From Candidatus Onthovivens merdipullorum (GTDB lineage: Bacteria > Bacillota_I > Bacilli_A > RFN20 > CAG-826), in NCBI GenBank assembly GCA_017694345.1, contig JADIMY010000078.1, forward strand, positions 1 to 32,887: a DNA stretch of 32,887 nucleotides, in the 5' to 3' direction. Below are positions 1,087 through 29,046 of the stretch, in pieces. The translations under genes were made by a program, and so were the position numbers. Each line of letters opens with the position of its first letter. The stretch's first letter is position 1. The notes below the pieces were generated by a model. It did not search any database and was not told the origin of the DNA. It saw nothing but the letters and a program-made list of their open reading frames with translations.

Positions 1087-1482
1087 TTAATCAGCTAAGA
1101 TTAATAATCTCATTGGGGCATTATCACCTTTTCTATTTTCAAGTTTTAACACTCTAAGGTAGCCACCATTACGATTTGCAAACTTAGGAGCAATCTCTTC
1201 AAATAATTTACTTAAAGCATCTCCACCATTTTCTAAATCGTATTTCTTTAAAACACTAGCTGCAAGTCTTCTACTATGTAAATCACCTTTTTTAGCATAA
1301 GTTACAAGACGATCAAATTGTTTAACAACATCTTTAACCATACTACGAGTAACTCTAACTTTTCCAAAAATGACTAGTTCAGTGCAAAGATTTCTAACTT
1401 GTGCTTTTTGTTTACTACTAGTATAAGGGGTCTTAAATCTTACACCACCTTTACCATGAACATTCTTTCTTCCGATTTGCAT
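1087..1482 (-). CDS. rplQ: 50S ribosomal protein L17
   Basis: MQIGRKNVHGKGG...; follows rpoA as in the canonical alpha operon. Confidence 0.93.
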   Translation of the reverse strand: MQIGRKNVHGKGGVRFKTPYTSSKQKAQVRNLCTELVIFGKVRVTRSMVKDVVKQFDRLVTYAKKGDLHSRRLAASVLKKYDLENGGDALSKLFEEIAPKFANRNGGYLRVLKLENRKGDNAPMRLLILAD

Positions 1483-1496
1483 AACTTTCTCCTAAA

Positions 1497-2483
1497 CTAT
1501 TCAGGTTTAGCTTCTTTAAAGCTAAGTCCTTTCTCTTCGAGCTTATCTTTAACTTCTTTAAGAGACTTTTTACCTAAATTTCTCACTTTCATCATCTCAG
1601 CTTCAGTCTTTTGTGTTAATTCTCTTACATTAGCAATACCTGCTCTTTTTAAACAGTTATAACTACGAACACTTAAGTCTAAATCTTCAACAGTGAGATT
1701 TTCATAGGTTTCTTCTTTCTTAACATCGACATCTTTAATTAAATCGAGATTTCCATAAGTGCCATTAGATACTTCTAAGAATTTATTGAAGTAAGCGATT
1801 AGCATTTTACTAGCTAAAGCAATAGCATCTTTTGGTTCGAGCGCGCCATTTGTCCAAACTTCTAAAGTAAGTTTATCGTAATTACTACTATGACCAACAC
1901 GGGTTGGTTCAACTTGATAATTTACTCTAGTAACACTACTAAAGTTACTATCAGTTGCAATACCATGAAGTGGGATTTTGCTAATGATCTTGTTTTGTTC
2001 ATTAGTGACATAGCCTCGACCATTTTTAATGTGGAGAGTCATCTTTAAATGACCACCTTCAGCAATATGAGCAATCTCTAATTCTGGATTAACAACAGTT
2101 AAGCCAGTAGGAGTTTCAATATCACCTGCTTTAAAAACGGTTGGTCCATAGACATCGACATAAGCGGTGTAATCTTCTTCTCCAATAGTATCAGATTTTA
2201 AGATTAAATCTTTTAAATTAAGAATAATTTGTGTTAAATCTTCTTCAATTCCTTCTAAAGCAGTAAATTCGTGAACTGCTCCTTCAACTTCAACACAATA
2301 AACACTTGTTCCAGGTAAACTAGAAAGTAATACACGTCTAAGAGCATTACCAAGCGTAGTGCCAAACCCTCTTTCAAGTGGAGAGCAAACTATACGTCCA
2401 TAGTGTTCGTCTTTATCCCCTGTTGTGAATTTAAAATCACATCTTTCAAAAGGACGAGCAATCTTTAATTCTTCATTATCCAT
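1497..2483 (-). CDS. rpoA: DNA-directed RNA polymerase subunit alpha
   Basis: Alpha NTD (GFGTTLGNALRRVLLSSLPG) and alpha CTD (LDLSVRSYNCLKRAGI...LGKKSLKEVKDKL). Confidence 0.98.
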   Translation of the reverse strand: MDNEELKIARPFERCDFKFTTGDKDEHYGRIVCSPLERGFGTTLGNALRRVLLSSLPGTSVYCVEVEGAVHEFTALEGIEEDLTQIILNLKDLILKSDTIGEEDYTAYVDVYGPTVFKAGDIETPTGLTVVNPELEIAHIAEGGHLKMTLHIKNGRGYVTNEQNKIISKIPLHGIATDSNFSSVTRVNYQVEPTRVGHSSNYDKLTLEVWTNGALEPKDAIALASKMLIAYFNKFLEVSNGTYGNLDLIKDVDVKKEETYENLTVEDLDLSVRSYNCLKRAGIANVRELTQKTEAEMMKVRNLGKKSLKEVKDKLEEKGLSFKEAKPE

Positions 2484-2507
2484 TTTTCTAGCCTCCTAAA
2501 ACTAATA

Positions 2508-2897
2508 TCAACCATGTGGATGCTTTGGTGGTCTACAACCATTATGTGGAATTGGAGTAGAATCGACAATTGAAGTAATGGTTAATCCAGCTTGTGATAA
2601 AGCTCTTATAGCGCTTTCTCTACCAGCTCCTGGACCTTTAACATCGACATCAACACTTTTAATACCTTGTTCTACTGCGGCTCTTCCTGCTGCTTCAGCA
2701 GCGCTTTGTGCAGCAAATGGGGTAGATTTCTTTGCTCCTTTAAATCCTAAAACACCAGAACTTGACCAGGCAATTGCATTGCCTTGTTCATCAGTAATAG
2801 TGACGATGGTATTATTGAAGGTAGCGTGAATATGAGCGACACCCTTCGTATAAGCTCTTTTAATCTTCTTTTTACGAGTAGTTTGTTTTTTAGCCAT
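2508..2897 (-). CDS. rpsK: 30S ribosomal protein S11
   Basis: [15 protein letters not shown]...[12 protein letters not shown]; ends in TGA. Confidence 0.98.
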
Positions 2898-2910
2898 AAC
2901 TTACGCCTCC

Positions 2911-3285
2911 TTATTTGACAGCTTCTTTCTTATTAGCGATTGTCTTTCTAGGACCTTTACGAGTTCTCGCATTAGTCTTAGTTCTTTGACCTCTAACAGG
3001 AAGCCCTCTTCTATGACGAATACCTCTATAACAACCAATTTCTTGGAGTCTTTTAATATTCATCATTACTTCTCTTCTTAAATCACCTTCAACTTTATAA
3101 TGACTTACTTCATTTCTAACTCTAGTAATTTCATCTTCAGTTAAATCTTTAACTCTTTTAGTTGGATCTACATTTGCGTTAAGAACAATCTTTTTAGCTG
3201 TAGATAAGCCAATTCCATAAATATAAGTTAATGAATAGGTGATAACTTTATCATTTGGAATATCAACACCGACAATACGTGCCAT
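2911..3285 (-). CDS. rpsM: 30S ribosomal protein S13
   Basis: [26 protein letters not shown]...[18 protein letters not shown]. Confidence 0.98.
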
Positions 3286-3300
3286 AATTTTTCCTCCTAA

Positions 3301-3414
3301 TTAGCCTTGTCTTTGCTTATGTTTAGGATTAGAACAGATGACCATAACTTTGCCATGTCTTCTAATTACCTTACATTTGTCGCAAATAGGTTTTACGGAA
3401 GGTCTTACTTTCAT
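3301..3414 (-). CDS. rpmJ: 50S ribosomal protein L36 (zinc-binding form)
   Basis: Not in ORF track (short). Manual translation: [39 protein letters not shown] present upstream. Confidence 0.96.
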
Positions 3415-3426
3415 ATAATTTCCTCC

Positions 3427-3648
3427 TTATTTGTGTCTAAACACTATTCTGCCATTGTTTAAATCATAAGGCGAAAGTTCGATGGTAACTTTATCACCAG
3501 GTAAAATGCGTATGTAATGCATTCGGATTTTACCTGAAACAGTGGCGTGAATTACCATATTGTTATCTAATAGCTTTACTTTGAAATTGCAATTTGGTAA
3601 AGCTTCTGTGACAATCGCCTCGACGGATATTACATCTTGTTTTGCCAT
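3427..3648 (-). CDS. infA: translation initiation factor IF-1
   Basis: [30 protein letters not shown]...[30 protein letters not shown]. Confidence 0.97.
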
Positions 3649-3649
3649 A

Positions 3650-4420
3650 CTAGTTAATTTCTTCTCCTTCTTTTAAAGTTAAAATTTCATAACCATCACT
3701 TGTCACAGCGACCGTATTTTCATAGTGACAAGAGAGTTTCCCATCTATAGTTTTCGTAGTCCAACCATCTTCTAGAATCTTCACTTCTTTTGATCCTTCA
3801 TTGACCATTGGTTCAATTGCAATAGTCATTCCTTCTTTTAAGATCGGACCAGTGTGAGGAAGTCCAGTATTAGGGACATATGGATCTTCATGAACTTCTC
3901 TACCTACCCCATGTCCACTAAAATCTTCATTTAAAGAGTAACCTTTAGAATGAACATAGCTTTCTATAGCGTTTGATATATCCCCGATATGGTTATTTGG
4001 ACGAACTTCTTTAACTCCTTTAAAGAAACTTTCTTTAGTTACTTCGATGAGTCTAGAAGCTTCACTACTAACTTTTCCAACAGGAAATGTACGGGCAGCA
4101 TCTGCGGTATAACCGTTTTTAGTAACTAAGATATCATAACTTACGATATCGCCTTCTTTTAAGATAATCTTTTTAGAAGGAATACCATGAATTAAGGTAT
4201 CATTTACCGAGATGCAAATGTGACCTGGAAAACCTTCGTACTTATAAGAACTCGCTTTACCTCCACGAGATTCGATAAAGGTGTTCGCAATACGATCAAG
4301 TTCATAGGTCGAGATACCTGGAACACTATGAGCTTTCAAGATGTCAAAGAGCTCAATAATGATTTTTCCAGCTTCTTTTATTAAAGCAATTTCACGCTTC
4401 GATTTAATAATGATACTCAT
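3650..4420 (-). CDS. map: methionine aminopeptidase, type I
   Basis: [18 protein letters not shown]..., [12 protein letters not shown], canonical position. Confidence 0.96.
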
Positions 4421-4428
4421 TAATATTC

Positions 4429-5076
4429 TTAACCTAAAATTGCATTAATATCTTTCATTAATTCTTCTAAAGGTTTAGTTCCATCGACTTCGTGGAGTTT
4501 ATTGACTTTAGAATAAAATTTTACTAGTGGCATTGTATTTTGATGATATTCACTAAGTCTAGTACGAAGTGTTTCTTCGTTATCATCTTTTCTTTGAATT
4601 AAATCTCCTCCACATAAATCACATTTACCTTCAACTTTTGGAGGCATATTCTTAATGTGATAAGGAGCGCCACATTTAGAGCAAACTCTTCTACCAGTAA
4701 TTCTTTCGACAAGAATATTTTCAGGAACAACGAAGTTAATAACATATTTAACTTCGCGATTTAATTCTTTACCAATATTTTCAAGAGCTTCGGCTTGAGC
4801 AATCGTTCTAGGAAAACCATCTAATAAATATCCATCTTTACAATCATCTTTAGAAAGTCTTTCTTTAACTAGTCCGATTGTGACATCGTCTGGAACAAGT
4901 GCTCCTTTAGAGATATAGCTATTAGCTAATTCTCCTAAAGGAGTTTTATTTTTAATTGCTTCTCTAAACATATCTCCGGTTGAAATATGAGGGATATTAT
5001 AAGAAGCACATATACGCTTAGCGTTTGTTCCTTTACCAGCACCAGGAGCTCCAAGTAATATGATTGATTTCATCAT
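4429..5076 (-). CDS. adk: adenylate kinase with Cys4 zinc lid
   Basis: GAPGAGKGT P-loop; CSKCGAPYHIKNMPPKVEGKCDLCGG lid. Confidence 0.97.
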   Translation of the reverse strand: MMKSIILLGAPGAGKGTNAKRICASYNIPHISTGDMFREAIKNKTPLGELANSYISKGALVPDDVTIGLVKERLSKDDCKDGYLLDGFPRTIAQAEALENIGKELNREVKYVINFVVPENILVERITGRRVCSKCGAPYHIKNMPPKVEGKCDLCGGDLIQRKDDNEETLRTRLSEYHQNTMPLVKFYSKVNKLHEVDGTKPLEELMKDINAILG

Positions 5077-6410
5077 TACATTCCTCCTATTACTTCATCA
5101 TAACTCTTTCCAGCGATTAAACCATTGATTTGGTTATTAAGTTCTAGAGCAACACCGACGACGATAATAAGTCCTGTTCCACCTATAGCAAGGGTTGGAT
5201 CTTCATTAAAGACAGTAAGTGTTAAAACTACTGGTAGAGCCGCAATAAACATCAAGCTTATTGCTCCGATAAAGGTAACTCTATTTAAAACTTTTTTAAC
5301 ATAATTTGCGGTTTCAACCCCTGGTCTAATTCCAGGAATATAACTACCATTCTTTTGGAAATTCTCAGCTAACCTATCTGGATTAATTTGTAAATTAGCG
5401 TAGAAATAAGTAAATAACAAGATGAGTACGAGGTAGATTATAAGTCCCCAAGGAATCATAACTCCACCAGTATTGACTAATTGGTTATATTGGAAAATTT
5501 GTAACCAACTAGCGTTCATCGCATCTTCACTAATAAAACTAGCAATAACACTAGGTGCCATCATAATTGAACTAGCAAAGATGACAGGAATAACACCAGC
5601 ACTATTAATTTTTATTGGTAAGAAACTAGCTTTTGAAAGTTTTTCGCTTCCACCACTTCTAGTTGCGTGTTGAACTGGTATTTTTCTTCTAGCAAGTTCG
5701 ATATAAATAACAAAAGCGACAATAGCGATTAAACAAGCGATATATAAGACGAATTGGAAGACTCCTCTCATCGCTTCTTTACTGCCGGTATTCCAACTTG
5801 CAAGTACCCATTCGCTAAATCCAGTATAGATTTGATTTGGTAAACTAGCGACAATTCCAGCAAAGATAATAACGGAGATTCCATTACCAATACCTTTAGA
5901 AGTAATTTGGTCACCTAGCCACATAACTAGCATTGCTCCAGCTACCATAATCGATACGACATAAGCGTAATTTAAGAAATTTTCTTCAAAATTAAATGTA
6001 ATCCAACTCGTATTTTGTGCAGTTTGAATAATTCCATAAGCTTGAACTGCAGCTAGCATAAGTGTTAAATAACGAGTTGCCATCTCGATTTTTTTACGAC
6101 CGTATTGTCCTTGCTTAGTGAGTTCACTTAATGCAGGAAGAACATCCATACTTAAAAGTTGGATGATAATTTGAGCCGTAATATAAGGCGAGACACCTAA
6201 AGCAAAAATCGAAAAGTTTTGTAAAGCACCACCACCAAGAAGATTCATTAAAGCGAAGACATTATTAGATTGATCTAAGACATCGCTATTAACAGTAATT
6301 CCTGGAGCGGTAATCGCTGCCCCGATTCTAAAGACAAATAAAATCATAATCGTGAAGAATATACGATTTACGACTTCTTTGTTTTTAAAAATTTGGATAA
6401 ACTTCTTCAT
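5076..6410 (-). CDS. secY: preprotein translocase subunit SecY
   Basis: 10-TM protein; ITAPGI, GVSPYITAQIIIQLL, GQYGRKKIEMATRY, GSYIPGIRPG motifs. Confidence 0.98.
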   Translation of the reverse strand: MKKFIQIFKNKEVVNRIFFTIMILFVFRIGAAITAPGITVNSDVLDQSNNVFALMNLLGGGALQNFSIFALGVSPYITAQIIIQLLSMDVLPALSELTKQGQYGRKKIEMATRYLTLMLAAVQAYGIIQTAQNTSWITFNFEENFLNYAYVVSIMVAGAMLVMWLGDQITSKGIGNGISVIIFAGIVASLPNQIYTGFSEWVLASWNTGSKEAMRGVFQFVLYIACLIAIVAFVIYIELARRKIPVQHATRSGGSEKLSKASFLPIKINSAGVIPVIFASSIMMAPSVIASFISEDAMNASWLQIFQYNQLVNTGGVMIPWGLIIYLVLILLFTYFYANLQINPDRLAENFQKNGSYIPGIRPGVETANYVKKVLNRVTFIGAISLMFIAALPVVLTLTVFNEDPTLAIGGTGLIIVVGVALELNNQINGLIAGKSYDEVIGGM

Positions 6411-6434
6411 AACTAATTACAAATGGTAATTATA

Positions 6435-6872
6435 TTATAAAACTTCGGCTTTTGCACCTGCTTTATTTATTTTTTCTAAAGCACTTTCACTAAATTTATT
6501 AGCTTTAATGGTAATTTTCTTAGTGAGTTCTCCTTCACCTAAAACTTTTAAACCATTAAATTCTTTTTTGATAACCTTGTCACTAACGAGTCTAGTTAAG
6601 TCAATGACTTCACCATCGTTATAGCGATTTAAGACTTTAAGATTGACGGTAGCGTAGATTTTTTTACCAAAATGTTTGAAACCTCTTTTAGGAAGTCTTC
6701 TAAAGAGTGGAAGTTGACCACCTTCAAAACCAAGTCTAACTCCACCACCAGTTCTACTATTTTGTCCTTTAGAACCAGATCCACCATTTTTTCCTAGTCC
6801 ACTACCAAGTCCTCTACAGCGTCTAGTTTTAGTTTTTCTACTACCTTCAGTTGGTTTAAGATTATTTAACAT
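6435..6872 (-). CDS. rplO: 50S ribosomal protein L15
   Basis: Start revised from ORF-track 6911 to ATG at 6872 ([31 protein letters not shown]...) because AAGGAGG SD sits just upstream. Confidence 0.94.
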
Positions 6873-7503
6873 CGCTACTTTCCTCCTTAGGTCCTCTAAG
6901 AGCTTTAACACCCTTATAACTCTTTAAATTACTTAAAGCATTATGTGTTGCACGGATGACATTAATTGGAGTTCTACTTCCATAAACTTTACTATAAACA
7001 TTTTGAATACCAGCAAGTTCAAGAATTGCTCTAACAGCACCTCCAGCAATGATTCCAGTACCTTCAGGAGCAGGTTTTAAGAAAACTTCAGTAGCTCCAA
7101 ATTTACCAATAATTTCGTGAGAAATTGATTTAGCGTTAGCAAGTTCAATATTGAAAGTATTTCTTTTTGCTTTTTCAACAGCTTTTTTAATAGCATCTGG
7201 GACTTCGCCTGATTTACCACTTCCAAAGCCATATTTTCCTTTACCATTACCAATTACGACAACGGCACTAAATTTCATTCTTTTACCACCGCTAACAACT
7301 TTAGTAACACGGTTAATAGTGACGACTCTTTCTTCGTATTCTTTTACTTCAGCTTTTGGAGCTCTTTTTGTGAAAGGTCTTTTACCTCTAGGAGCACCTT
7401 TTTTAGCGTTTTGAGCGTTTTCGTTAGTTTCTACATTTTCAGTAGTTTCTTTTACTTCAGCTTGAACTTCTTGATTTTCAACTTTCTTTTCTTCGTTTGC
7501 CAT
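6862..7503 (-). CDS. rpsE: 30S ribosomal protein S5 with charged N-terminal extension
   Basis: [38 protein letters not shown] core; ~50-aa K/E-rich N-terminus. Confidence 0.97.
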
Positions 7504-7513
7504 AATTTACTCC

Positions 7514-7870
7514 TTAGAATTTTAGACCTGCTTCCCTAGCAGCTTCAGCTAGAGCTTTCACACGACCATGATATAAATATCCAGCACGATCAAAGACGAT
7601 TGAAGTAATGTTTTTTTCTAAACACTTTTTAGCAATATCTGTTCCGACAAGTTTTGCGGCTTCGATATTGTTTCCTCTAGGTAAGTGAAGTTGTTCACTA
7701 CTACTAGAGCATAAAGTGACGCCTTTAGTATCATCAATAATTTGAGCTTCAATATTTTTATTACTACGATAAACACATAGACGAGGAGTAAGGCTAGTTC
7801 CACTAATCTTAGCACGAACTCTTAAATGTTTTCTTTTTCTAACTAAATTTTTATCAACAGTTTTAATCAT
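7514..7870 (-). CDS. rplR: 50S ribosomal protein L18
   Basis: [37 protein letters not shown]...[26 protein letters not shown]. Confidence 0.97.
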
Positions 7871-7881
7871 AGCCTCTCTCC

Positions 7882-8427
7882 TTATTTCTTACCAGCTCTC
7901 TTACCTTCTTTACGTAAGATATGTTCGCCTTTATATTTAATTCCCTTTCCACCATATGGTTCTGGTTTACGGGTTTCACGGATTAATGCAGCCGTTTGAC
8001 CAACTTTGAATTTATCACTACCACTAACTTCGATGTGGTTAGCATCGATACATTTAATTGTAACACCTTCAATTGGTTTTAAGACATTTTCATGACTATA
8101 ACCAACATGTAAAACGAGATCTTGACCTCTCATTTCAGCTCTATAACCGATTCCAACGATTTCAAGTTCTTTTTTAAAGCCGTCGTGGCAACCAATTATA
8201 GCGTTATTAATAAGAGCTCTAATCGTTCCATGAAGTTGTTTTGTTTGTTTTTCTTCATTAGTTCTAGAAACTTTGATGTGACCATGTTCGATTTCAACTT
8301 TAATTAATCTAGGATCATAAGGAATTTTATCTTCCCCATTTTTTCCTTTAATATCGACTGTGTTATCTTTTATTTCAACGCTAACTCCTTCGATAAGAGG
8401 AATTAATTTTTTACCAATACGTGACAT
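7882..8427 (-). CDS. rplF: 50S ribosomal protein L6
   Basis: [11 protein letters not shown]...[29 protein letters not shown]. Confidence 0.97.
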
Positions 8428-8440
8428 TAGTTACTCCTCC

Positions 8441-8839
8441 TTACCAAATGTAGCAAACGACTTCGCCACCGATATTTTGAGCTCTACAAGCTTTATCGGT
8501 TAATAGTCCTTTACTAGTTGAAATAATAGCGATACCTAAACCTCTAAGAACGCTTGGAATGTGTTTAGCATCGCAGTTAACTCTTAAGCCAGGTTTAGAA
8601 ATTCTTTTTAAGCCAGTGATGACACGAGTTTTATTTTCACCATATCGAAGTGATATAGTTAAAGTCTTTTTATGTTCATCGATACTTTCAACTTTATAAT
8701 CAGTGATGAATCCTTCATCACGGAGAATTTTACAAATAGCAACCTTCATTTTGCTAGAAGGCATCGAAACGCTTTCGTGATATAAAGCATTAGCGTTTCT
8801 AATTCTTGTTAACATATCTGCAATAGGATCTTGATGCAT
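8441..8839 (-). CDS. rpsH: 30S ribosomal protein S8
   Basis: [29 protein letters not shown]...[31 protein letters not shown]. Confidence 0.97.
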
Positions 8840-8851
8840 AATATTACCTCC

Positions 8852-9037
8852 TTACCATGAAGATTTCTTTAGTCCTGGGATCTCACCTTTATAAGCGAGT
8901 TCTCTAAGACAAATTCTACAAAGTCCAAATTTAGAATAGACTGCGTGAGGTCTACCACATCTTTTACAACGGGTATATTCTCTAACTTTAAATTTTTGAG
9001 GTCTTGATTGTTTTACTTTTAAACTTTTTCTAGCCAT
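8852..9037 (-). CDS. rpsN: 30S ribosomal protein S14, type Z (zinc-binding)
   Basis: [38 protein letters not shown]. Confidence 0.97.
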
Positions 9038-9050
9038 AAATTAACGCTCC

Positions 9051-9677
9051 TTATTTACTAAAAGGCATACCTAACTCTTTAAGTAAAGCGTAGGCTTCCT
9101 CATCGGTTCTTGCGGTTGTGACGATTACGACATCAAGTCCTCTTACTTTACCAACTTTATCGTAATCAATTTCAGGAAAGATGAGTTGTTCTTTAACACC
9201 TAAAGTGTAATTACCTCTTCCATCGAAACTATTTTTATTAACACCACGGAAATCACGAACTCTAGGTAAAGCAATTGAGACGAGTTTATCGAAGAATTCA
9301 TACATTCTTACACCACGGAGTGTTACTTTACAACCAATTGATTGACCTTCTCTTAATTTAAAGGTAGCAATTGATTTTTTAGCTTTTGTAATGATAGGTT
9401 TTTGACCAGTAATTAAAGCGAGTTCACTAACTGCTTCATCGAGTCTTTTACTATCACTAGTTGCATCTCCAACACCGATATTTAAGACAATTTTATCAAG
9501 ATGTGGAACTTGCATAATTGATTTATATTCAAACTTTTTCATTAAGTTAGGAGTAATTTCGTTATGAAATTTTTCAAGTAAACGAGTAGTTTTTACTCTT
9601 TGCTTATGTTCTCCTTTTTCTTTCTTTACTTCAGTTTTAGGAGCTCTTACTTTAGCTTTAACTTCTTTTTCTGCCAT
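9051..9677 (-). CDS. rplE: 50S ribosomal protein L5 with charged N-terminal extension
   Basis: [18 protein letters not shown]... core; ~28-aa Lys/Glu-rich N-terminus. Confidence 0.97.
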
Positions 9678-9688
9678 AATCTTCTCCT

Positions 9689-10000
9689 TTACTTAATGAT
9701 CGAGTCGTTAATTTTTTGATAACGAACTTTATTTCCATCTTTATCGAACTTATAGCCAATACGAGTACCTTTTTTAGTTTTATTGTCGTAATACATAACA
9801 TTACTTACATCGATTGGACTATACATTTCAACAATTGAGCCGTTAGGATTTTGTTGAGTAGGTTTTTGATGTTTCTTATGAATATTAACACCCTCGACAA
9901 CTACCTTATTAAGTTTTGGGTAGGCTCTTTGGATGACACCAACTTTACCTTTATCTTTTCCAGCGATAACGACTACTTTATCACCTTTTTTAAGTTTCAT
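9689..10000 (-). CDS. rplX: 50S ribosomal protein L24
   Basis: [28 protein letters not shown].. KOW motif. Confidence 0.97.
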
Positions 10001-10018
10001 ATCCTTATTCCTCCCAGT

Positions 10019-10393
10019 TTATAAAACTTCAGTTGCAAGGGATACAATCTTCATGAATGCATCACCTTTTTCTCTTAATTCACGAGCGACAGGTCCAAAG
10101 ACACGAGTTCCAACTGGTGTCTTATCTTCATTGATGATGACGCAAGCGTTATCATCAAATCTAATAGTAGATCCATCTTTTCTTTGAATAGGATAGCTAG
10201 TTCTTACGATTACTGCTTTAACAACATCGCTTTTTTTAACCTTAGCATTAGGTATAGCATCTTTAACAGCGCATAAAACGATATCACCAACAGAGCAACT
10301 CTTTCTATGGCTACCACCATAGATTCTAAATACTCTTACGCTACGAGCACCAGAATTATCAGCAACTTTTAAATTTGTTTCGGTTTGTATCAT
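10019..10393 (-). CDS. rplN: 50S ribosomal protein L14
   Basis: [24 protein letters not shown]...; SD GGAGG upstream. Confidence 0.98.
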
Positions 10394-10395
10394 AA

Positions 10396-10743
10396 TTACT
10401 TAGCCTCCGTAACAGTTTCTTCTTTAAGAGCTTCTTCTTTATGCTCTTCGTGTAAAACTTCTTCAAGAGCTTCTTCTTCCATTAATTTAATGCTTTCAAG
10501 AGCTTTCTTATCGACACTAACTAATCTAAATCTCTTGGTTTTGCTCATTGGACGGCATTCTTCGATAGTGACAGTATCACCAACTTTTGCAGTTTCAAGT
10601 TCATCATGAGCATAGTATTTACTTCTAAATTGAACTCTCTTTTTATATTTAGGATGTTTTCTATAAGATTCAACTTGGACAACTAATGTCTTTTTGGTGT
10701 TAGCAGCAATGACTACACCTTGAATACGTCTTCTTTTATCCAT
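10396..10743 (-). CDS. rpsQ: 30S ribosomal protein S17 with acidic C-terminal extension
   Basis: [45 protein letters not shown] core; Glu-rich C-terminal tail. Confidence 0.96.
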
Positions 10744-10754
10744 AACTTCTCTCC

Positions 10755-10952
10755 TTATTTAATACCGAGTTCTCTTTCTTTAAGAACTGTGTATACACGA
10801 GCAATATCTTTACGGACATTTTTAATTTCACTAGTATTTTCGAGTTGTCCGACAGCTTTCTTTCTTCTTAAATTGAATAATTTTTCTTTTAAGGAGTAAA
10901 TTTGTGAATTTAATTCTTCAGTTGATAATTCTCTAACTTCAGCTATTTTCAT
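10755..10952 (-). CDS. rpmC: 50S ribosomal protein L29
   Basis: MKIAEVRELSTEELNSQIYSLKEKLFNLRRKKAVGQLENTSEIKNVRKDIARVYTVLKER. Confidence 0.97.
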   Translation of the reverse strand: MKIAEVRELSTEELNSQIYSLKEKLFNLRRKKAVGQLENTSEIKNVRKDIARVYTVLKERELGIK

Positions 10953-10955
10953 AAA

Positions 10956-11369
10956 CTATTTTTCCTCCCTTTTGATTACTCTTGTTCTAATTGGTAATTT
11001 GTAAGATGCCATACGGAGTGCTTCTTTAGCAACTTCATCTGGAACTCCACCAATTTCGAATAAAACTCTATTTGTTTTAACAACAGCTACCCAATACTCT
11101 GGATTACCTTTACCACTACCCATACGGACTTCAGCAGGTTTTTTAGTTTTTGCTAAGTGTGGGAAGATTCTAATCCAGATCTTTCCTTGTCTTTTGGTAT
11201 ATCTACTTAAGACGACACGGCAAGCTTCGATTTGACGGTCGCTTATATAGTTACCAGTGACAGCTTGGAGACCATATGTACCAAAATCGACAGTGTTACC
11301 AGCTTTTGATAAGCCTTCATATTTGATAATATGTGGTCTTCTATACTTGACTCTTTTTGGTTGTAACAT
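10956..11369 (-). CDS. rplP: 50S ribosomal protein L16
   Basis: [36 protein letters not shown].... Confidence 0.98.
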
Positions 11370-11371
11370 AT

Positions 11372-12046
11372 TTATTCTCCTTTCTTATCACCTTTTGGAC
11401 TCGTTTCAACTTCTCCTCTACAAATCCAAACTTTGACACCGAGTTTTCCATAAGTTGTCATTGCTTCACTTACTGCAAAATCGACATCACTCTTTAAGGT
11501 GTTGATAGACATAATTCCATCTTTATAGCCTTCGCTACGAGCAATATCTGCTCCACCAAGTCTACCACTAACTTCGGTTTTACATCCTTTAGCACCAGCT
11601 TTTCTAACTTGAGAGATAGCTTTCTTTTGAACGATACGGAAACTAGCTCTTTCTTCGAGTTGTTTAGCGATTTGTAAGGAAACAATTTTAGCGTCTAAAG
11701 AAGGTTGTTTAACATCGACGACATCGACTTTTACATCTTCGTTGTGGATAAGTTTAACAAGTTCTTTCTTTAAGGCTTTAATTGTAGCTCCTTCTTGACC
11801 AAGGACGACACCAGGTCTAGCGACAAAGATCATAATTGTAACATGTTGACCTTTATTAGTCTTTTTTCTTTCAATTTCGATATGTGATAAGAAAGCATTT
11901 CTATCGATATGACTTTCAATATATTCACGAATCTTGTTATCTTCGATTAAGAAAGTTGAGTAATCTTTTTTATTAGCAAACCATCTGCTATTCCAATTTT
12001 TATTAATTCCAACTCTCATTCCTACTGGATTAACTTTTTGTCCCAT
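11372..12046 (-). CDS. rpsC: 30S ribosomal protein S3
   Basis: [29 protein letters not shown]... KH domain. Confidence 0.98.
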
Positions 12047-12059
12047 AGTTTCACCTCTC

Positions 12060-12653
12060 TTAATCTCTTTCTTTTAAAGTGACATAGATGTTACTAAATC
12101 TTTTTACTAAGCCACTTGCACTACCTTTAGCTCTTGGTAAGTATCTTTTCATCTTGACACTATCACCAACCATAATTTCACTAACATATAACTTGTCTCC
12201 GTTCATATTGAAGTTATTAGTAGCATTAGCATAAGCACTTTTAATGACTTTACTAACCATTACACAAGCTTTTTTATGAACATTTGCTAAGATAGCAAGA
12301 GCTTCATCGACATCCTTATTTCTTACTAGATTTACGACTAAGCGTGCTTTTCTTGGAGTAACTTTGACATTTAAGGCACTAGCTTTGGATTCAGTTCTTT
12401 TTGGTTTAGCTTCTTCGACAACTTTTTTCTTTTTCTTAGAAACCTTTTCTTCTTTAACTTCAGGTGCTTTAACTTCTTCACTAGCTTTTTTAGTCTTTCT
12501 TGGTTTTTTAGTTTCGACTACTTCACTAGTTTCTTTTACTTCTTCTTTTGGAGCTTTAGCTACTCTTTTACGAGTTACTTTCTTTTCAGTTTCTTTTACT
12601 TCTTCGCTAACTTCTTTTTTAGCTCTTTTTGTAACTTTCTTTTCTTCAGCCAT
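12060..12653 (-). CDS. rplV: 50S ribosomal protein L22 with ~90-aa Lys/Glu-rich N-terminal extension
   Basis: Core ASALNVKVTPRKARLVVNLVRNKDVDEALAIL...; start revised from 12668 to ATG 12653 (GGAGGAAAAGCTAATGGCT). Confidence 0.95.
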   Translation of the reverse strand: MAEEKKVTKRAKKEVSEEVKETEKKVTRKRVAKAPKEEVKETSEVVETKKPRKTKKASEEVKAPEVKEEKVSKKKKKVVEEAKPKRTESKASALNVKVTPRKARLVVNLVRNKDVDEALAILANVHKKACVMVSKVIKSAYANATNNFNMNGDKLYVSEIMVGDSVKMKRYLPRAKGSASGLVKRFSNIYVTLKERD

Positions 12654-12667
12654 TAGCTTTTCCTCCA

Positions 12668-12976
12668 TTACTTCTTAATGCCTGCAGCAGCTTTAGCAGC
12701 AGCTTTATCTTCAGCATTATTTCCAAAGTGTCCTTTATAGGTTCTAGTTGGAGCAAACTCACCGAGTTTGTGTCCAACCATATCTTCAGTAACATAGACT
12801 GTAATAAAGGCGTGACCATTATAAACAGCGAAAGTATGTTCGACAAATTCTGGGAAAATTGTACTTCTTCTAGACCAGGTTTTGATGACTTCTTTTTTGT
12901 TAACTTTATTTAAAGCTTCAACTTTTTTCATCAAGCTTTCATCAACGAATGGTCCTTTTTTTAAACTTCTTGACAT
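12668..12976 (-). CDS. rpsS: 30S ribosomal protein S19
   Basis: [24 protein letters not shown]...[16 protein letters not shown]. Confidence 0.98.
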
Positions 12977-12990
12977 AGCGTTCTCCTTTA

Positions 12991-13824
12991 TTACTTACCA
13001 TTTCTTCTTCTAATAATTAATTTAGTAGAAGCTTTCTTATTCTTACGAGTCTTAACTCCAAGAGCTCTTTTACCCCAAGGGGTTCTTGGTGCATCACGAC
13101 CGACAGGACATTTACCTTCACCACCACCATGTGGGTGATCAGTTGGGTTCATAGCACTACCTCTAACGGTAGGTCTAATTCCTAAATATCTTGATTTTCC
13201 AGCTTTTCCTAAATTTACTAAGCTATAGTCTTCATTTCCAACTACACCAATCGTTGCTTTACAAGTTCCTAAGATTTTTCTCATCTCACCACTTTGAAGT
13301 CTAACGATGACATATTTTCCTTCTTTACCAAGGATTTGTGCACTACATCCAGCACTTCTACAAAGTTGACCACCTTTTTTTGGAGTAAGTTCAACATTAT
13401 GAACGAATGTACCTTCAGGAATGTTATTGAGTAACATTGCATTACCCGTTACGATATCGCAAGTTTCTCCACTCACGATTTTATCACCGACTTTAAGTCC
13501 TTTTGGTTGGATGATATATCTTTTTTCTCCATCAACATAATGGATTAAAGCGATATTAGCATTTCTATTTGGATCGTATTCAATTGCGAATACTTTTCCA
13601 ACTACTCCATCCTTATCTCTTTTAAAATCGATAATTCTATATTTTCTTTTGTTTCCTCCACCGATATGGCGAGTTGTAATAACACCTTGGTTATTTCTTC
13701 CACCAGTTTTCTTTAAGGTAACGAGTAAACTTTTTTCAGGAGTAGATTTTGTGATCTCTTCCATAGAGATGGTTGTCATTGCTCTACGAGAAGGAGTATA
13801 TGGTTTATAACTTTTTACTGGCAT
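12991..13824 (-). CDS. rplB: 50S ribosomal protein L2
   Basis: [17 protein letters not shown]...[32 protein letters not shown]. Confidence 0.98.
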
Positions 13825-13851
13825 AATATTTCTCCTATATGTAAGTTAACT

Positions 13852-14199
13852 TTATTCTTTGAATAAGTCGATTGCTTCGCCACTAGCTAAAGTAATAATA
13901 GCTTTTTTATAACCTGGGAGAGTTCCTTTATATCTACTTCCACGGGTTACAGTTTTACTTTTAGCGTGAGATGTTTGAACACCGATAACTTTAACATTAT
14001 AGATGTGTTCAATAGCTTTCTTTATAGCAATCTTATTAGCGTCACTTTTAACAATAAAGGTTGCTTTATTGTTTTCTTGAGACATCGTCATTGATTTTTC
14101 AGTAATAAGAGGTTCAATAATGATATCGAAATCGTTTGCAGTACCTTTTTTTACTTCATTTACAACTTCAGGAGTTGTAACTTTTGCTTTTCTTGGCAT
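13852..14199 (-). CDS. rplW: 50S ribosomal protein L23
   Basis: DIIIEPLITEKSMTMSQENNKATFIVKSDANKIAIKKAIEHIYNVKV. Confidence 0.97.
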   Translation of the reverse strand: MPRKAKVTTPEVVNEVKKGTANDFDIIIEPLITEKSMTMSQENNKATFIVKSDANKIAIKKAIEHIYNVKVIGVQTSHAKSKTVTRGSRYKGTLPGYKKAIITLASGEAIDLFKE

Positions 14200-14843
14200 T
14201 ATTTAGTTTCCTCCTTTACTTTGTTAATACTATTTTCAAATCCTTTTAAATCTTCTTTAACAAAGATTAAGGCTTCAGTATTTAAGATATCGTAGACGCT
14301 TAAGTTTCCAATAAATCTATTGATTAAATTTGGAAGGTTACGACTTGCTCTAAGGACAAGTGAATCGTCTCTAACTAAGGTAACTTTTTTATTTTCAAGT
14401 TTGAGAGCCTTTAATAATTCACTCATTTCTTTAGTTTGTCCATTTACTTTAAGTTCATCTAAGACATAGATGTGTTCTTTTCCTAAACTTGATAAGGCAC
14501 TCTTAATAGCTAATGTATGAGCTTTTTTATTTTGTCTAAGTTTGAAGTTTTGTTCTCCTTTAGGTCCAAAGACATTTCCGCCTCCAACCCAGATAGGTGA
14601 ACGGGTGCTTCCAGCTCTAGCTCTACCAGTTCCTTTTTGTCTCCAAGGTTTTTTACCACCACCACTTACTTCAGCTCTTGTTTTAGTTTTAGCGGTTGCT
14701 TGACGACGATTTGCCATATAAGTGGTAACTGCATCAAACATTACTTGGTTATTCACTTCGTGAGCGAAGATATCTTTACTAACGCTAACTGTAGAAGTTT
14801 TTTCGCCTTTTAGGTTATATACATTTAATTTAATTGATTCCAT
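14199..14843 (-). CDS. rplD: 50S ribosomal protein L4
   Basis: RQATAKTKTRAEVSGGGKKPWRQKGTGRARAGSTRSPIWVGGG. Confidence 0.98.
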   Translation of the reverse strand: MESIKLNVYNLKGEKTSTVSVSKDIFAHEVNNQVMFDAVTTYMANRRQATAKTKTRAEVSGGGKKPWRQKGTGRARAGSTRSPIWVGGGNVFGPKGEQNFKLRQNKKAHTLAIKSALSSLGKEHIYVLDELKVNGQTKEMSELLKALKLENKKVTLVRDDSLVLRASRNLPNLINRFIGNLSVYDILNTEALIFVKEDLKGFENSINKVKEETK

Positions 14844-14857
14844 ATAACGACCTCCTA

Positions 14858-15565
14858 TTAATTAGCACTAGCTTCTGTAGCTTCAGCTTTAGGAGTTCTA
14901 TCGATTAATGTTTTAATTGCTTCGACATTTCCTCTTTGAGCTTTAATTGCACTTCTAATCATAACGATGGATTTTTTAGGTCCTGGGACACCACCACTAA
15001 CTAAGATATAGTTTTTAGTTGCATCAACTTTAACAATTCTTTGATTTAAGACTGTTGCACTTTGATTACCCATATGTCCAGCCATCTTTTTACCAGGGAT
15101 GACACGGTTATTACAACGACCATTATTAGCAAATGATCCTTGACCTCTATGGTAACCAGATCCATGTCCTTTAGGTCCTATTGTGTGACCCCATCTTTTA
15201 ATAACACCAGCGTATCCTCTACCTTTACTAGTTCCTATAACATCGATAACTTCACCGACTTGGAATAAATCAGCTTTAATTTCATTACCGACTTCGAACT
15301 TGAGCATTTCATCACCTTTAAGTTCATATAAATGTTCTTTAGTAGGAACACCGGCTTTTCTATAAATTCCTTTTAAAGGATTTGTTACTCTACTTTCTTT
15401 TTTATCTTCGTAGCCAACTTGAACTGCTTCATAGCCATCACGATCTAAAGTTTTCTTTAAAGTAACAACATTAGGTAAGACTTCGATAACAGTGACAGCA
15501 TACATTGTACCGTCTTCTGCGTATAATTGAGTCATTCCCATTTTACGACCAATGATACTTTTCAT
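14858..15565 (-). CDS. rplC: 50S ribosomal protein L3
   Basis: MKSIIGRKMGMTQLYAEDGTMYAVTVIEV...; start revised from 15607 to 15565 (GGAGGTAAGAGTGATG). Confidence 0.97.
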   Translation of the reverse strand: MKSIIGRKMGMTQLYAEDGTMYAVTVIEVLPNVVTLKKTLDRDGYEAVQVGYEDKKESRVTNPLKGIYRKAGVPTKEHLYELKGDEMLKFEVGNEIKADLFQVGEVIDVIGTSKGRGYAGVIKRWGHTIGPKGHGSGYHRGQGSFANNGRCNNRVIPGKKMAGHMGNQSATVLNQRIVKVDATKNYILVSGGVPGPKKSIVMIRSAIKAQRGNVEAIKTLIDRTPKAEATEASAN

Positions 15566-15578
15566 CACTCTTACCTCC

Positions 15579-15890
15579 TTATAATTTGATATCGATATCG
15601 ACACCACTTGGAAGATCTAATTTTCTAAGGGCTTCAATCGTGTCACTATTTGGACTAACGATATCGATAAGTCTCTTATGTGTTCTAATTTCAAATTGTT
15701 CACGAGAATCTTTATTTATATGAACAGCTCTAAGGATTGTTACTACTTCTCTTTCGGTTGGAAGAGGAATAGGACCAACAACTCCTGCACCAGTTTTAGT
15801 AATTGCACCGACAATCTTTTCAACTGCAAAGTCTAATACTCTGTGGTCATAAGCTTGTAAGCGAACTCTAATCTTCTTAACTTTTGCCAT
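15579..15890 (-). CDS. rpsJ: 30S ribosomal protein S10
   Basis: [73 protein letters not shown]. Confidence 0.98.
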
Positions 15891-24125: not shown

Positions 24126-25979
24126 ATGAAAAAAAGTTTAATATTAATTCCAGCCTTATTTAGTTCTTTTATTTCCTTGGGTTTTATTAATAAACCTGTC
24201 AACATATTTAAATCAGTTACCGAAATATCAACTATAGATGAGCTTCGTTCTACAAGTGAAGAAATAAAAGAATACTATAGTGCATTAGATGGTAAAGATT
24301 TAAAAGGTGATGAATTTTTAAGTGCTTTACAAGAAATATTAAAAGAAAATCAAACTAAATGTGATTATTCTGGTAAAAGTGGAAAATCTAAAAGTAAAAT
24401 TTGGGATACATATCTACTTGCTGATCGAAACTTTGATAAATCACCTTTAACAACTGAAGAAATAAATAAAATAAATGAAGGTGACCCTTATTGGTGGGAT
24501 ACCGACTTAGTTTATTGTAATGTTTTATATGAAGAGGAACCTTATAAATTTGATCGACAAATAGTAAATCAAAATATTGAAGGCCAAGAAGAACAAAAAA
24601 TTGACCGTGAACATATTTATCCTAAATCCTATGGTTTTAATGGTGCTAATGGTAATAATGATGCCTATAAAGATATGCTAGCAGGTTGCGATATGCATAA
24701 TCTTCATATGGGTGAAGGTACTTCTAATCAAAATTATCATGGCAATCTTCCTTATGGCAATGTAAGTGAAATCGATAAAGAAAATAAAGACAATATCGCC
24801 ATTTCTTCTTTAAGTGGAACAGTTGGAAGCTATAAAGGTACTCATGAAGTTAAAGAAGGCACTACTTCTTATACTAAAGAAGTATTTGAACCAATCGATA
24901 AAGACAAAGGCGATATCGCTAGAAGCATTTTCTATATGGCAGCTAGATACCATAATTATGAAGAAAATGTTATAGGTGAAACTTATCCTACACCTCGACT
25001 TTTATTAAGTGATTTTCCAAATGATCCTAAAGATGGCACTCATGAACCAGGCGAAACTAAAGATACAGATATATCTTATGGTGTCTTAAGTGATTTAATA
25101 GAATGGAATAAACTTGATGAAGTCACTGAAAGTGAAAAATTAAGAAATGATTTAGTCTACAAATATATTCAGCACAATCGTAACCCATTTATTGATTTTC
25201 CTAAATGGGTAGATATCGCTTTTAATCCAGATACAGAATATGTAATCGATTTAAATAGTGAAGATGGCGTTAGTTTAGCTTTTGAAGCTAATATTAGTTT
25301 TGGTAATAATACAAACACCTATGCATTAAATGAACCAATTGATTTTTCTAATTTGGTAATGAATTACACTCTTCCTGGAGAAGATGAAAAAACTAGCGAT
25401 TACACCAATTTAAATTTAGATATCACTAATAGATTAAATGATAAAGTAATTTATAGTAATTACGATATGTCAAAGCCTTTAACCTTAGAGGAAGGATATT
25501 ATAAATTTAATTTCGCTTTAAAAGAAAATAATGAATATTCATTAGATGTTGAAGTTAAAGTTGGTGATTGTAATATAAATTATGTAGTTGATTTTAGTTC
25601 AATCCCTGAAACACAAAATTTATTTAAACCTCTTAATTTAAGTGCTATTAATGGAACTATTTCAATTGGTAACACTACTAAAAACTTATCTTACAGTGAT
25701 TTATCGATAAAACTATTAAACGCTAACAAAGAAGAAATTAATATTAGTGGTGATAATATTAGACTTTCTTTTGGTAATTACTCAATTGAAGCAAGTTACA
25801 CTGATTTTTTAGGTGAATCTCACTCATTAACAAAAGATTTTAAAGTTGGTTTTGTTTTAGATGCTTTAACTATAGCAATAATTGTTATTGCTATAGTAAT
25901 AATCGTTATTTTAATAATTTTGATAGCCACCAAAAATCATAAGAAAAATAAAAGAAAAACCAAAAAATCAAATAGATAA
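24126..25979 (+). CDS. secreted, membrane-anchored endonuclease I-family nuclease
   Basis: Signal peptide MKKSLILIPALFSSFISLGF; IDREHIYPKSYGFNG...DMHNLHMGEGTSNQNYHGN nuclease motif; C-terminal TM ALTIAIIVIAIVIIVILIILIA followed by KNHKKNKRKTKKSNR. Confidence 0.85.
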   Translation: MKKSLILIPALFSSFISLGFINKPVNIFKSVTEISTIDELRSTSEEIKEYYSALDGKDLKGDEFLSALQEILKENQTKCDYSGKSGKSKSKIWDTYLLADRNFDKSPLTTEEINKINEGDPYWWDTDLVYCNVLYEEEPYKFDRQIVNQNIEGQEEQKIDREHIYPKSYGFNGANGNNDAYKDMLAGCDMHNLHMGEGTSNQNYHGNLPYGNVSEIDKENKDNIAISSLSGTVGSYKGTHEVKEGTTSYTKEVFEPIDKDKGDIARSIFYMAARYHNYEENVIGETYPTPRLLLSDFPNDPKDGTHEPGETKDTDISYGVLSDLIEWNKLDEVTESEKLRNDLVYKYIQHNRNPFIDFPKWVDIAFNPDTEYVIDLNSEDGVSLAFEANISFGNNTNTYALNEPIDFSNLVMNYTLPGEDEKTSDYTNLNLDITNRLNDKVIYSNYDMSKPLTLEEGYYKFNFALKENNEYSLDVEVKVGDCNINYVVDFSSIPETQNLFKPLNLSAINGTISIGNTTKNLSYSDLSIKLLNANKEEINISGDNIRLSFGNYSIEASYTDFLGESHSLTKDFKVGFVLDALTIAIIVIAIVIIVILIILIATKNHKKNKRKTKKSNR

Positions 25980-25981
25980 AC

Positions 25982-28900
25982 TTAAGAATTAAATGTTTCA
26001 TCAATCTTAGAATTAATGTGTTTTATAACGTCTTCATTAATTTTTAAGATTCGGTCATAAGTAAAGATACCATTAGTTTCGTCTTCAATATCATTAAGTT
26101 CAGTATAAATTACTCCATTAAGACCTTTCTTAATTAAAGGTAAAATTTTCTTCATGTATAGTTTTGAATAAGCTTGTTCATATTTTTCTTTCTTATTGTA
26201 AATGCGATATCCAAACTTCTTTAAGCCAAAGAAATGATCTTTAATCGTATAACTATACCCACCAAATTCAGTAAAAATAACAGGTTTTTGCAGGGTTTTT
26301 GAAATTTTTAAAGGATAAAAGTAAGAGTGAATACTTCTAATTTCGTTAAATCCATTATCGTACCAGCCACTAGCTACATCATAAATCCTAGAGTTGTCTA
26401 TTTCTTTAGCCATAAGATAAATTTCATAACTATCAAATTGACCCCAGCCTTCATTAAATAAAGTATACATAATAATTGAAGGATGATTATATAACCTATT
26501 AATAATAGAATTTAACACTTCTTTATATTCGTTTTTAGATTCAGTTTCTTCTCTAGAGAATTTCTTATAGTCCTTATCATTTTCTTTCTTTAAAAATGGA
26601 AATACCCCACCTTTAGTAATAGTCCAGAATTTATAATCACTTCCACCATTAGGAATATCTTGAATAACAAGTAATCCATTAGCATCACAATAATAATAAA
26701 ATGTATCGCACTCTTCTTTAATATGAACTCTTAAAGTATTAAAACCTAATTCTTTAACTTTACTTATATCAAATAAATAATCTTCATAAGATTTAGGAGT
26801 TAAATTACCTTCTTTATAATAACCTTGATCTAATAAACCATTAATAAATATTTTTTTATTATTTAAATAAAGATTACTACCTTCAATTTTTATATCTCGA
26901 TACCCAAAATAAGTATTAACAATATCCTTATTAAACCTAATCTCAACATCGATAAGTTTAGGATCATCAATCTCCCATAAAGGTAAACTTAAATCTTTAA
27001 GTACTACTTCTTTATTAGTTTCAACATCAAACTCATATCTATCAAATTTTAAATGAGCTATTCCATCTTTATTTGTTTTTATAAAGACTTTTAAACTATT
27101 TTCATTAATTAAAGGAGTAAATTTTGATTCAATAATAAATTCATCGCTAGTTGATTCAAGCCAAACCGGTTTATAAATACCACTACTAGAAGTATACCAT
27201 ACTCCACCTCTAGATAATTTTTGTTTGCCTCTAGTTAAACTTGACCTATTTGTTTCATCTTTACAAATAACTTCGAGTACAAACTCATTAGTTTTAATAA
27301 ATGGCGTTATATCTAAAACAATTGGTGTATAACCTCCAATATGAGTAGAGATATGAATTGAATTAATATAAATTTTAGAAATTTGATCAATTCCATCAAA
27401 ATGTAGAACCAATCTGTCTTTTTTAAATTTTTCTGGTAATTTAACTAACTTTCTATAATGAATATATTCATCTACTTCTAATAAATGAGATACACCACTT
27501 AAAGGAGATTCAATTGCATAAGGTACAATACACTTCTTGTCGTACTTTACATTTAAGTCATTACTTTTATTAATAACAATATCCCATTCTCCATTTAAAC
27601 ATAAATAACTATCTCTAACAAAACTTGGTCGAGGATATTCACTAAGTGGAACTTCTTCATTATGTTTATTACCTTTAATTAATATTCCTAAATTCTTATT
27701 TTTCTTATCTTTTTTATCTTTATATATTAAATAAGTTAAAGGTATAAAAATTAAAACCATAATTGCTAAAGCAACTAGCCAAATATAAGCACTAGGTAAA
27801 GGTTTAGTTTGACCTAAATCGGTATAAAATTTATCACTAAAATTCTCACTTAAAGCTTCACCAATAAAAGGGCCAGTCACCATAGGAAGCATAACGACAA
27901 AAATCATTCTGATTCCCATAAATGATCCTTCTTCACCTTTAGGTATATTGTCTCTAACTATGGAATTTAATAAGCTAGTCATTGAAATATAGCCAAACAT
28001 CATTATTGTTCCAGCAATAATCGCAAAAGCTAAGTTTCCAGGATTAACAAAATAAACTAAAAGTAATCCAGCCATATAAATTAAACTAAGTGGTATTAAC
28101 ATAATTAATTTATTATGTCGGTCACTTAAAAAACCAAATAAAATACTTAGAATACTACCTAAAATTAAGACACAACCTAATACAATTGAAAAATTAATTC
28201 CGCTAAATTCTAAGTTATGTTCGAAGTAAACCATTAAATATGGAAAGAAGACTTGTGTCGCTACACAATATATTAAATAAGCGATTAAAACTATATAAAG
28301 CTTCTTATTATTTTTTATCGTTTTTAATTTAAAACCCTCTAAAACTTGACTAAAATATCCTTTTTTTCTTTCTTCTTTAGGTTCTTTTGGTAACAAGAAA
28401 ATAGATAAAATACCAACTAAAAATACTACTCCACCAATAATATAAAAGAATAAATCCCATCTAGGGGTTTCTAGTTGTGTTAAATTATTTAAACCTACAA
28501 ATATTATAAGCATTGCAAATAAAGGTAAAACACTTAAAACTCCCTCAACTTTTCCTCTATTTTCTTTACTTACAACTTTCGTGACATAACTATTAAAAGA
28601 AGCATCATTAGCACTACTTCCAAAGAAAGTCATAACACAATCAAGTACTACAACAAATACTCCACTTAAAAATCCAGCATTAGCTATTGGAAATAAAGCA
28701 TGAACATTATCGACATTAATTAAACCAAATGCAGCTGTTGAAATTCCCCATAAAATATAGCCTGAAATTATAAAAATCTTTCTTTTGCCTAAATAGTCAG
28801 TTAAAGCACCTATTAAAATAGTAGTTAAACATGCAGTTACTGCACTTAAGGCTACTGTTAAAGATATTAAACTTAAATAATTACCACCATCATCCAGATA

Positions 28901-29008
28901 GAAAATAAAACTATTTAGATACATATTTTCAACAGCCCAGGCAAGTTGACCAGCTAATCCAATTATGATAAAACTAATCCAGCTTTTAATCGATATCTTC
29001 TTATTCAT
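25982..29008 (-). CDS. MFS sugar transporter fused to glycoside hydrolase family 2 domain
   Basis: aa ~1-435 12-TM MFS (GALTDYLGKRKIF, GFLSDRHNK); aa ~450-1008 GH2: YPRPSFVRDSYLCLNGEWDIVI, LHFDGIDQISKIYINSIHI, FNTLRVHIKEECDTFYYYCDANGLLVIQDIPNGG, TLFNEGWGQFDS (acid/base), KPVIFTEFGGYS (nucleophile). One uninterrupted frame. Confidence 0.9.
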   Translation of the reverse strand: MNKKISIKSWISFIIIGLAGQLAWAVENMYLNSFIFYLDDGGNYLSLISLTVALSAVTACLTTILIGALTDYLGKRKIFIISGYILWGISTAAFGLINVDNVHALFPIANAGFLSGVFVVVLDCVMTFFGSSANDASFNSYVTKVVSKENRGKVEGVLSVLPLFAMLIIFVGLNNLTQLETPRWDLFFYIIGGVVFLVGILSIFLLPKEPKEERKKGYFSQVLEGFKLKTIKNNKKLYIVLIAYLIYCVATQVFFPYLMVYFEHNLEFSGINFSIVLGCVLILGSILSILFGFLSDRHNKLIMLIPLSLIYMAGLLLVYFVNPGNLAFAIIAGTIMMFGYISMTSLLNSIVRDNIPKGEEGSFMGIRMIFVVMLPMVTGPFIGEALSENFSDKFYTDLGQTKPLPSAYIWLVALAIMVLIFIPLTYLIYKDKKDKKNKNLGILIKGNKHNEEVPLSEYPRPSFVRDSYLCLNGEWDIVINKSNDLNVKYDKKCIVPYAIESPLSGVSHLLEVDEYIHYRKLVKLPEKFKKDRLVLHFDGIDQISKIYINSIHISTHIGGYTPIVLDITPFIKTNEFVLEVICKDETNRSSLTRGKQKLSRGGVWYTSSSGIYKPVWLESTSDEFIIESKFTPLINENSLKVFIKTNKDGIAHLKFDRYEFDVETNKEVVLKDLSLPLWEIDDPKLIDVEIRFNKDIVNTYFGYRDIKIEGSNLYLNNKKIFINGLLDQGYYKEGNLTPKSYEDYLFDISKVKELGFNTLRVHIKEECDTFYYYCDANGLLVIQDIPNGGSDYKFWTITKGGVFPFLKKENDKDYKKFSREETESKNEYKEVLNSIINRLYNHPSIIMYTLFNEGWGQFDSYEIYLMAKEIDNSRIYDVASGWYDNGFNEIRSIHSYFYPLKISKTLQKPVIFTEFGGYSYTIKDHFFGLKKFGYRIYNKKEKYEQAYSKLYMKKILPLIKKGLNGVIYTELNDIEDETNGIFTYDRILKINEDVIKHINSKIDETFNS

Positions 29009-29046
29009 AAAAGTTAGTCTCCTATTTACTTAAATTTTAGCACTAC

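Follow-up and report, generated by a model that had tools for sequence, protein, structure and literature searches.

A natural one-chain protein that joins an MFS carrier to a GH2 group III enzyme, probably of galactofuranosidase type, and recurs among gut bacteria

Results

In a 32,887-nucleotide contig of Candidatus Onthovivens merdipullorum, which we analyzed whole and refer to as the window, one gene encodes a single chain that comprises an MFS carrier followed by a complete GH2 enzyme. On balance, we think it probable that the MFS part of this natural protein takes up a galactofuranosyl saccharide, that the tethered GH2 group III enzyme hydrolyses it at the inner face of the membrane, and that such proteins arose repeatedly from an overlapping operon. 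The substrate, the import direction, and the benefit of tethering are what we infer within this reading.

The fusion is encoded in one continuous frame

The initial annotation described a genuine one-frame MFS-GH2 fusion, and this was borne out by the 1008-residue frame and by the same fusion in 26 genomes (Table 1). Within that frame, Pfam matched MFS_1 (E 9e-36), MFS_2 (residues 160-370), Glyco_hydro_2_N, and Glyco_hydro_2_C. The MFS domain covers residues 1-429 and is followed by a charged flexible linker and then by the complete GH2 enzyme. The linker sequence and the motifs FNEGWG (E853) and FTEFGG (E914) are exactly as first reported, and the two catalytic residues are intact throughout the relatives, fused and unfused. 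No in-frame ATG, GTG, or TTG occurs in the window's protein between residue 417, inside TM12, and residue 533, in the GH2 N-domain, and therefore the intact hydrolase is expected only as the fusion, in agreement with the earlier proposal. Both other frames of the linker contain stops. Some other fused members keep in-frame start codons near the joint, and most have none with a convincing ribosome-binding site.

Table 1. Positions in the window of the fusion gene and its parts
Feature	Position	Strand	Basis
Complete fusion gene, 1008 aa, single open frame	25982..29008	(-)	ATG start, stop 25982-25984; relatives full-length in one frame
AGGAG ribosome-binding site, 10 bases 5' of the gene's only start (ATG)	29019..29023	(-)	Read from sequence
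12 transmembrane segments, residues 5-427; MFS_1, residues 28-380	27728..28996	(-)	Pfam, hydropathy, structure model
Linker, residues 428-459, charged; lacks an in-frame start codon; modelled at low confidence; under coding constraint among relatives	27632..27727	(-)	
GH2 N-terminal sugar-binding domain, residues 514-618	27155..27469	(-)	Pfam
GH2 TIM-barrel catalytic domain, residues 706-998	26015..26893	(-)	Pfam, fold
E853, GH2 acid/base, NE motif, invariant 66/66	26450..26452	(-)	Alignment of relatives
E914, GH2 nucleophile, EFGG-type motif, invariant 66/66	26267..26269	(-)	Alignment of relatives
T969, YT motif, common to 7SF2, 9J6M/N, and 7XYR; putative Thr replacing the -1 subsite Trp	26102..26104	(-)	Putative position assignment

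An assembly or sequencing artefact that joined two genes is barely credible here. In favour of an artefact, the assembly is a draft of 137 contigs and some relatives are unfused; against it stand independent assemblies from many species that show one frame. The 26 fusions (relatives 73-36% identical) include 16 in the window's genus, where 15 further genomes carry the full-length frame at identities from 73 down to 48%. A second family in the window's order contributes four genomes (G232, G234, L037 = G236, and G238), among which the frame of G234 is missing its first 181 MFS residues. The others are G275, G312, G429, G544, and two Clostridia-labelled MAGs (L038 and L067). The L037 fusion lies on an 876-kb contig at 206x coverage. 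Across the joint, dN/dS is low (0.07-0.52 for the linker in close pairs), with whole-codon gaps only and no frame breaks. We ruled out misassembly or frameshift on the basis of this recurrence and of the coding constraint on the linker. No plasmid record covered 80% of the query, and among the matches listed only the GH2 half was represented.

Two other regions of the window deserve mention. The gene at 24126-25979 (+) converges on the fusion gene, with stops 2 bases apart, and encodes a 617-residue protein with an endonuclease I domain (PF04231), a C-terminal hydrophobic segment, and a Lys-rich tail; it is thus probably a membrane-anchored extracellular nuclease. At 1087-15890 (-), a single strand carries about 25 ORFs, most of them short and closely spaced, whose size and packing recall a ribosomal-protein cluster.

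The hydrolase is predicted to lie in the cytoplasm

Hydropathy analysis resolved 12 hydrophobic segments in the carrier, and a count of Lys and Arg in its loops gave 22 inside versus 3 outside. Since the inside loops are rich in these residues, we predict that the carrier begins and ends in the cytoplasm and that the GH2 domain is also located there. This positive-inside count upholds the 12-TM, N-in topology with a cytoplasmic GH2 domain that had been put forward, and it places the C-terminal end of the carrier inside as well. AlphaFold modelled both domains well (mean pLDDT 83.6), with a disordered, low-confidence joint at residues 435-447. The pTM of the full model was only 0.60, and therefore no docking of the MFS and GH2 domains is predicted, which counts against a reading of joint transport and hydrolysis.

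The carrier had been annotated as an MFS sugar transporter. Membership in the MFS stands by profile and fold, with 12 TM segments and MFS_1 above its cut-off; sugar transport is something we infer, because no curated sugar-transporter subfamily cut-off was reached. The GPH sugar:cation symporter model TIGR00792 scored 28-31 bits versus a curated cut-off of 231, and we did not file the carrier as GPH. Foldseek returned LmrP, YajR, and MelB at close scores. Neither curated models nor a PDB profile nor fold gave a clear MFS subfamily, and this, along with the drug exporters that stand beside MelB among the fold neighbours, speaks against uptake. Saccharide import would follow from the cytoplasmic hydrolase and the catabolic gene neighbours. 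As a separate observation, distant MFS relatives (∼37% identity; L059 and L062) lie directly 3' of a GH13 alpha-amylase-family gene, a placement that suggests that the carrier family serves other saccharides too.

The enzyme groups with GH2 group III

Both the sugar-binding N domain and the TIM barrel score above their curated Pfam cut-offs. The best sequence match was PDB 7SF2 (E 4e-81 over residues 453-1003), which was also the best fold match, followed in both respects by the Streptomyces beta-D-galactofuranosidase 9J6M/9J6N and then by 7XYR, with beta-glucuronidases and beta-galactosidases of other groups clearly later. As 9J6M (GH2_18) and 7XYR (GH2_19) outscore all group I enzymes, we place the enzyme in group III by this ranking. 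T969 is invariant and is likely the equivalent of the group III Thr listed in Table 1. GH2 group III comprises furanosidases, including arabinofuranosidases (PMC12243196), and the Streptomyces enzyme, ORF1110, cleaves beta-D-galactofuranosides but neither alpha-L-arabinofuranoside nor beta-D-galactopyranoside (PMC4560423). Scores against the beta-galactosidase and beta-glucuronidase equivalog models fell far below their cut-offs. Judged by these matches, the GH2 part belongs with the furanosidases of group III and differs from the usual beta-galactosidases and glucuronidases. The beta-glycoside substrate first suggested therefore needs narrowing: the sequence, the fold, and the neighbouring genes all indicate a galactofuranosidase-type enzyme. 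Weighing against this are the depositors' labels of 7SF2 as a beta-galactosidase and of 7XYR as a beta-glucuronidase; we found no assay behind the 7SF2 label. The genome of the window holds three more GH2 genes, none fused to a transporter (L002 on C123, L003 on C47, and L004 on C115), which are likely group III because they have the same Thr in a YT/LT motif.

Gene neighbourhoods point to galactose

In the window's genus, the fusion gene follows genes for a NAD(P)H-hydrate epimerase/dehydratase (in L084 too) and an SMC-like ATPase, neighbours that are uninformative on substrate. Most loci read had no polysaccharide-utilisation cluster around the fused genes, and the neighbours were largely housekeeping genes. 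A GH3 gene and a sulfatase gene lie near the fused gene in L067.

The unfused operons of three sister genera (g25, g23, and g30), by contrast with these uninformative neighbours, adjoin a galactokinase-like gene. In g25, an Und-P-translocase-like gene and then a galactokinase-like gene precede MFS and GH2, and this set is convergent with genes for a family-2 glycosyltransferase and UDP-galactopyranose mutase (Glf). In g23, the operon is oriented divergently from genes for galactose mutarotase, a galactokinase-like kinase, and a second GH2 enzyme, and in g30 the kinase gene is also near MFS-GH2. Overall, the kinase lies within 4.2 kb of the GH2 gene in 22 genomes of these genera, and it is present in 137/153 genomes that match either half of the fusion versus 32/71 that match neither (224 family genomes; Fisher p 3e-12, uncorrected for ancestry). 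The window's own genome has adjacent mutarotase and kinase genes on contig C31. Two points tell against the galactose reading, namely that the kinase scored 138 bits against the galactokinase model, under the cut-off of 226.65, and that it is unlinked to the fusion gene in the window's own genus. UDP-galactopyranose mutase is present in the window's genome, but across the family its presence was not associated with that of MFS-GH2 (p 0.78). This goes against galactofuranose, and we dropped Glf co-occurrence as support for it. At the g25 loci (L116-L119), synthesis of galactofuranose and breakdown of galactofuranosides may be encoded next to each other.

That the enzyme is instead an alpha-L-arabinofuranosidase, or a plain beta-galactosidase or other pyranosidase, seems to us somewhat unlikely. 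Group III does contain arabinofuranosidases (PMC12243196), and the best PDB match was deposited as a beta-galactosidase. L-arabinose isomerase (AraA), however, is absent from 11/11 genomes of the genus, galactokinase-like and mutarotase genes neighbour the operon in the sister genera, and the equivalog scores are low. Taken together, the gene context favours a galactose-releasing and probably galactofuranoside-cleaving enzyme. It fits a substrate of dietary origin as well as one derived from other microbes or from the surface of the cell itself.

The fusion probably arose from an overlapping operon

Most of the unfused homologues examined form a two-gene operon, MFS then GH2. Among 29 unfused adjacent pairs, 27 have overlapping frames and 23 are in relative frame +1. 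Fused linkers keep a peptide typical of a separate GH2 start (NNG-LY-L...EYPRP), and a small indel in the overlap would therefore explain the joining. The overlap is very A-rich at the MFS stop in unfused relatives (G089 locus L075, G103 locus L077, and others), as in GAAGAAAAAGAAAAATAATGG of G089; programmed frameshifting could yield some fusion product even in "unfused" species.

The trees required eight changes between fused and unfused states for GH2, seven for MFS, and seven for the concatenated alignment, numbers whose exact value is not fixed by the sampled MAG set and single-gene trees. A single origin was rejected by the AU test, both for one clade of all fused rows (p 5e-9) and for one clade of the inner 20 fused rows (p 8e-7). 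The ancestral state is the overlapping operon, MFS then GH2. The changes may be gains or losses, with repeated gain the simpler reading because the outgroups are unfused throughout. The initial annotation held that close relatives with two separate genes would speak against the fusion. Some genomes of the same genus do have separate genes, so that fused and unfused states are intermixed within one genus; this is no sign of error, since the two closest relatives, at 73% and 63% identity, have the fusion, and the trees identify the separate genes as the ancestral or sister state.

Discussion

We propose that the N-terminal MFS domain imports a galactofuranosyl or, less likely, another galactosyl saccharide, and that the linker would hold the C-terminal GH2 domain at the inner face of the membrane, where the sugar would be removed by the two-glutamate mechanism usual for GH2. 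Freed galactose would then be handled by two enzymes whose genes lie elsewhere in the genome, a galactose mutarotase and a galactokinase-like kinase. On the genetic side, a small indel or stop loss in an overlapping MFS-GH2 operon would have brought both genes into one frame, an event that would have been repeated in Bacilli and Clostridia. Repeated joining suggests that a physical link between carrier and enzyme brings some benefit or, at a minimum, does little harm. The direct coupling of uptake to hydrolysis put forward in the initial annotation goes further than these results. We regard as rather unlikely the stronger prediction of a single-polypeptide transport metabolon, in which the substrate would leave the carrier beside the tethered galactofuranosidase, hydrolysis would pull uptake, and this advantage would have led to repeated selection for the fusion among the Bacilli and Clostridia of the gut.

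There is nearly an even prospect that the fusion is selectively neutral, keeping the same two activities in 1:1 amounts with no coupling, given that one indel easily joins overlapping, A-rich gene ends in frame +1. The overlap and +1 frame of 23/29 unfused pairs, the mixture of both states inside one genus, and the differing length and sequence of linkers between fused groups are all consistent with neutrality. On the other hand, several fused clades were kept through long divergence (GH2 down to ∼45% identity) with coding constraint on the linker, and independent internal starts were lost. Far less probable is that the GH2 part mainly regulates the transporter, in the manner of the IIA domain of LacS. 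LacS, a GPH carrier, likewise combines a 12-TM MFS part and a cytoplasmic domain at the C terminus in one chain (PMC10703360), but its IIA domain is a regulatory phosphotransfer domain whereas ours is a hydrolase, and none of the GH2 catalytic motifs varies among the proteins, whether fused or not.

Returning to the proposed carrier-hydrolase protein, its GH2 part resembles Streptomyces sp. JHA19 ORF1110 (GH2_18; 9J6M/9J6N) in group III fold (TM-score 0.80-0.84 on target), in the catalytic Glu pair, and in the motif YT...D.E.E.NG..TYD. At ∼25% identity, the two differ in that ORF1110 carries a signal peptide as well as an AbfB domain (PMC4560423), whereas the GH2 part of the fusion is predicted to be cytoplasmic and is tethered to a transporter. 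The closest match, the Bacteroides cellulosilyticus GH2 protein 7SF2, stands alone, and its activity is the depositor's label. Consistent with the initial annotation, which knew of no characterised example, our search, which covered the open-access literature, turned up no natural protein in which an MFS carrier is joined to a glycoside hydrolase. NarK1-NarK2 (cited in PMC7997004) is a natural MFS gene fusion like this one but joins two carriers without an enzyme. Both halves of our protein belong to known families; what is new is the joined form, its recurrence, and the likely substrate class.

Whether joining a carrier to a catabolic enzyme brings a gain has mostly been argued from engineered fusions and weak complexes. 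One engineered system, in yeast, reportedly used scaffolded xylose isomerase. This artificial transport metabolon (Thomik et al. 2017, cited in PMC6349770) follows the same idea of an enzyme at a sugar transporter but is not a natural fusion. To our knowledge, little has been described of how gut bacteria take up and use galactofuranose, a non-mammalian sugar; if galactofuranosyl uptake is true, these proteins would offer such bacteria a way to bring galactofuranose into the cell. In nature, carrier and enzyme have been joined several times (seven to eight changes on the trees), and the unfused sister genes of the same genus can serve as controls; the benefit of joining is therefore directly testable.
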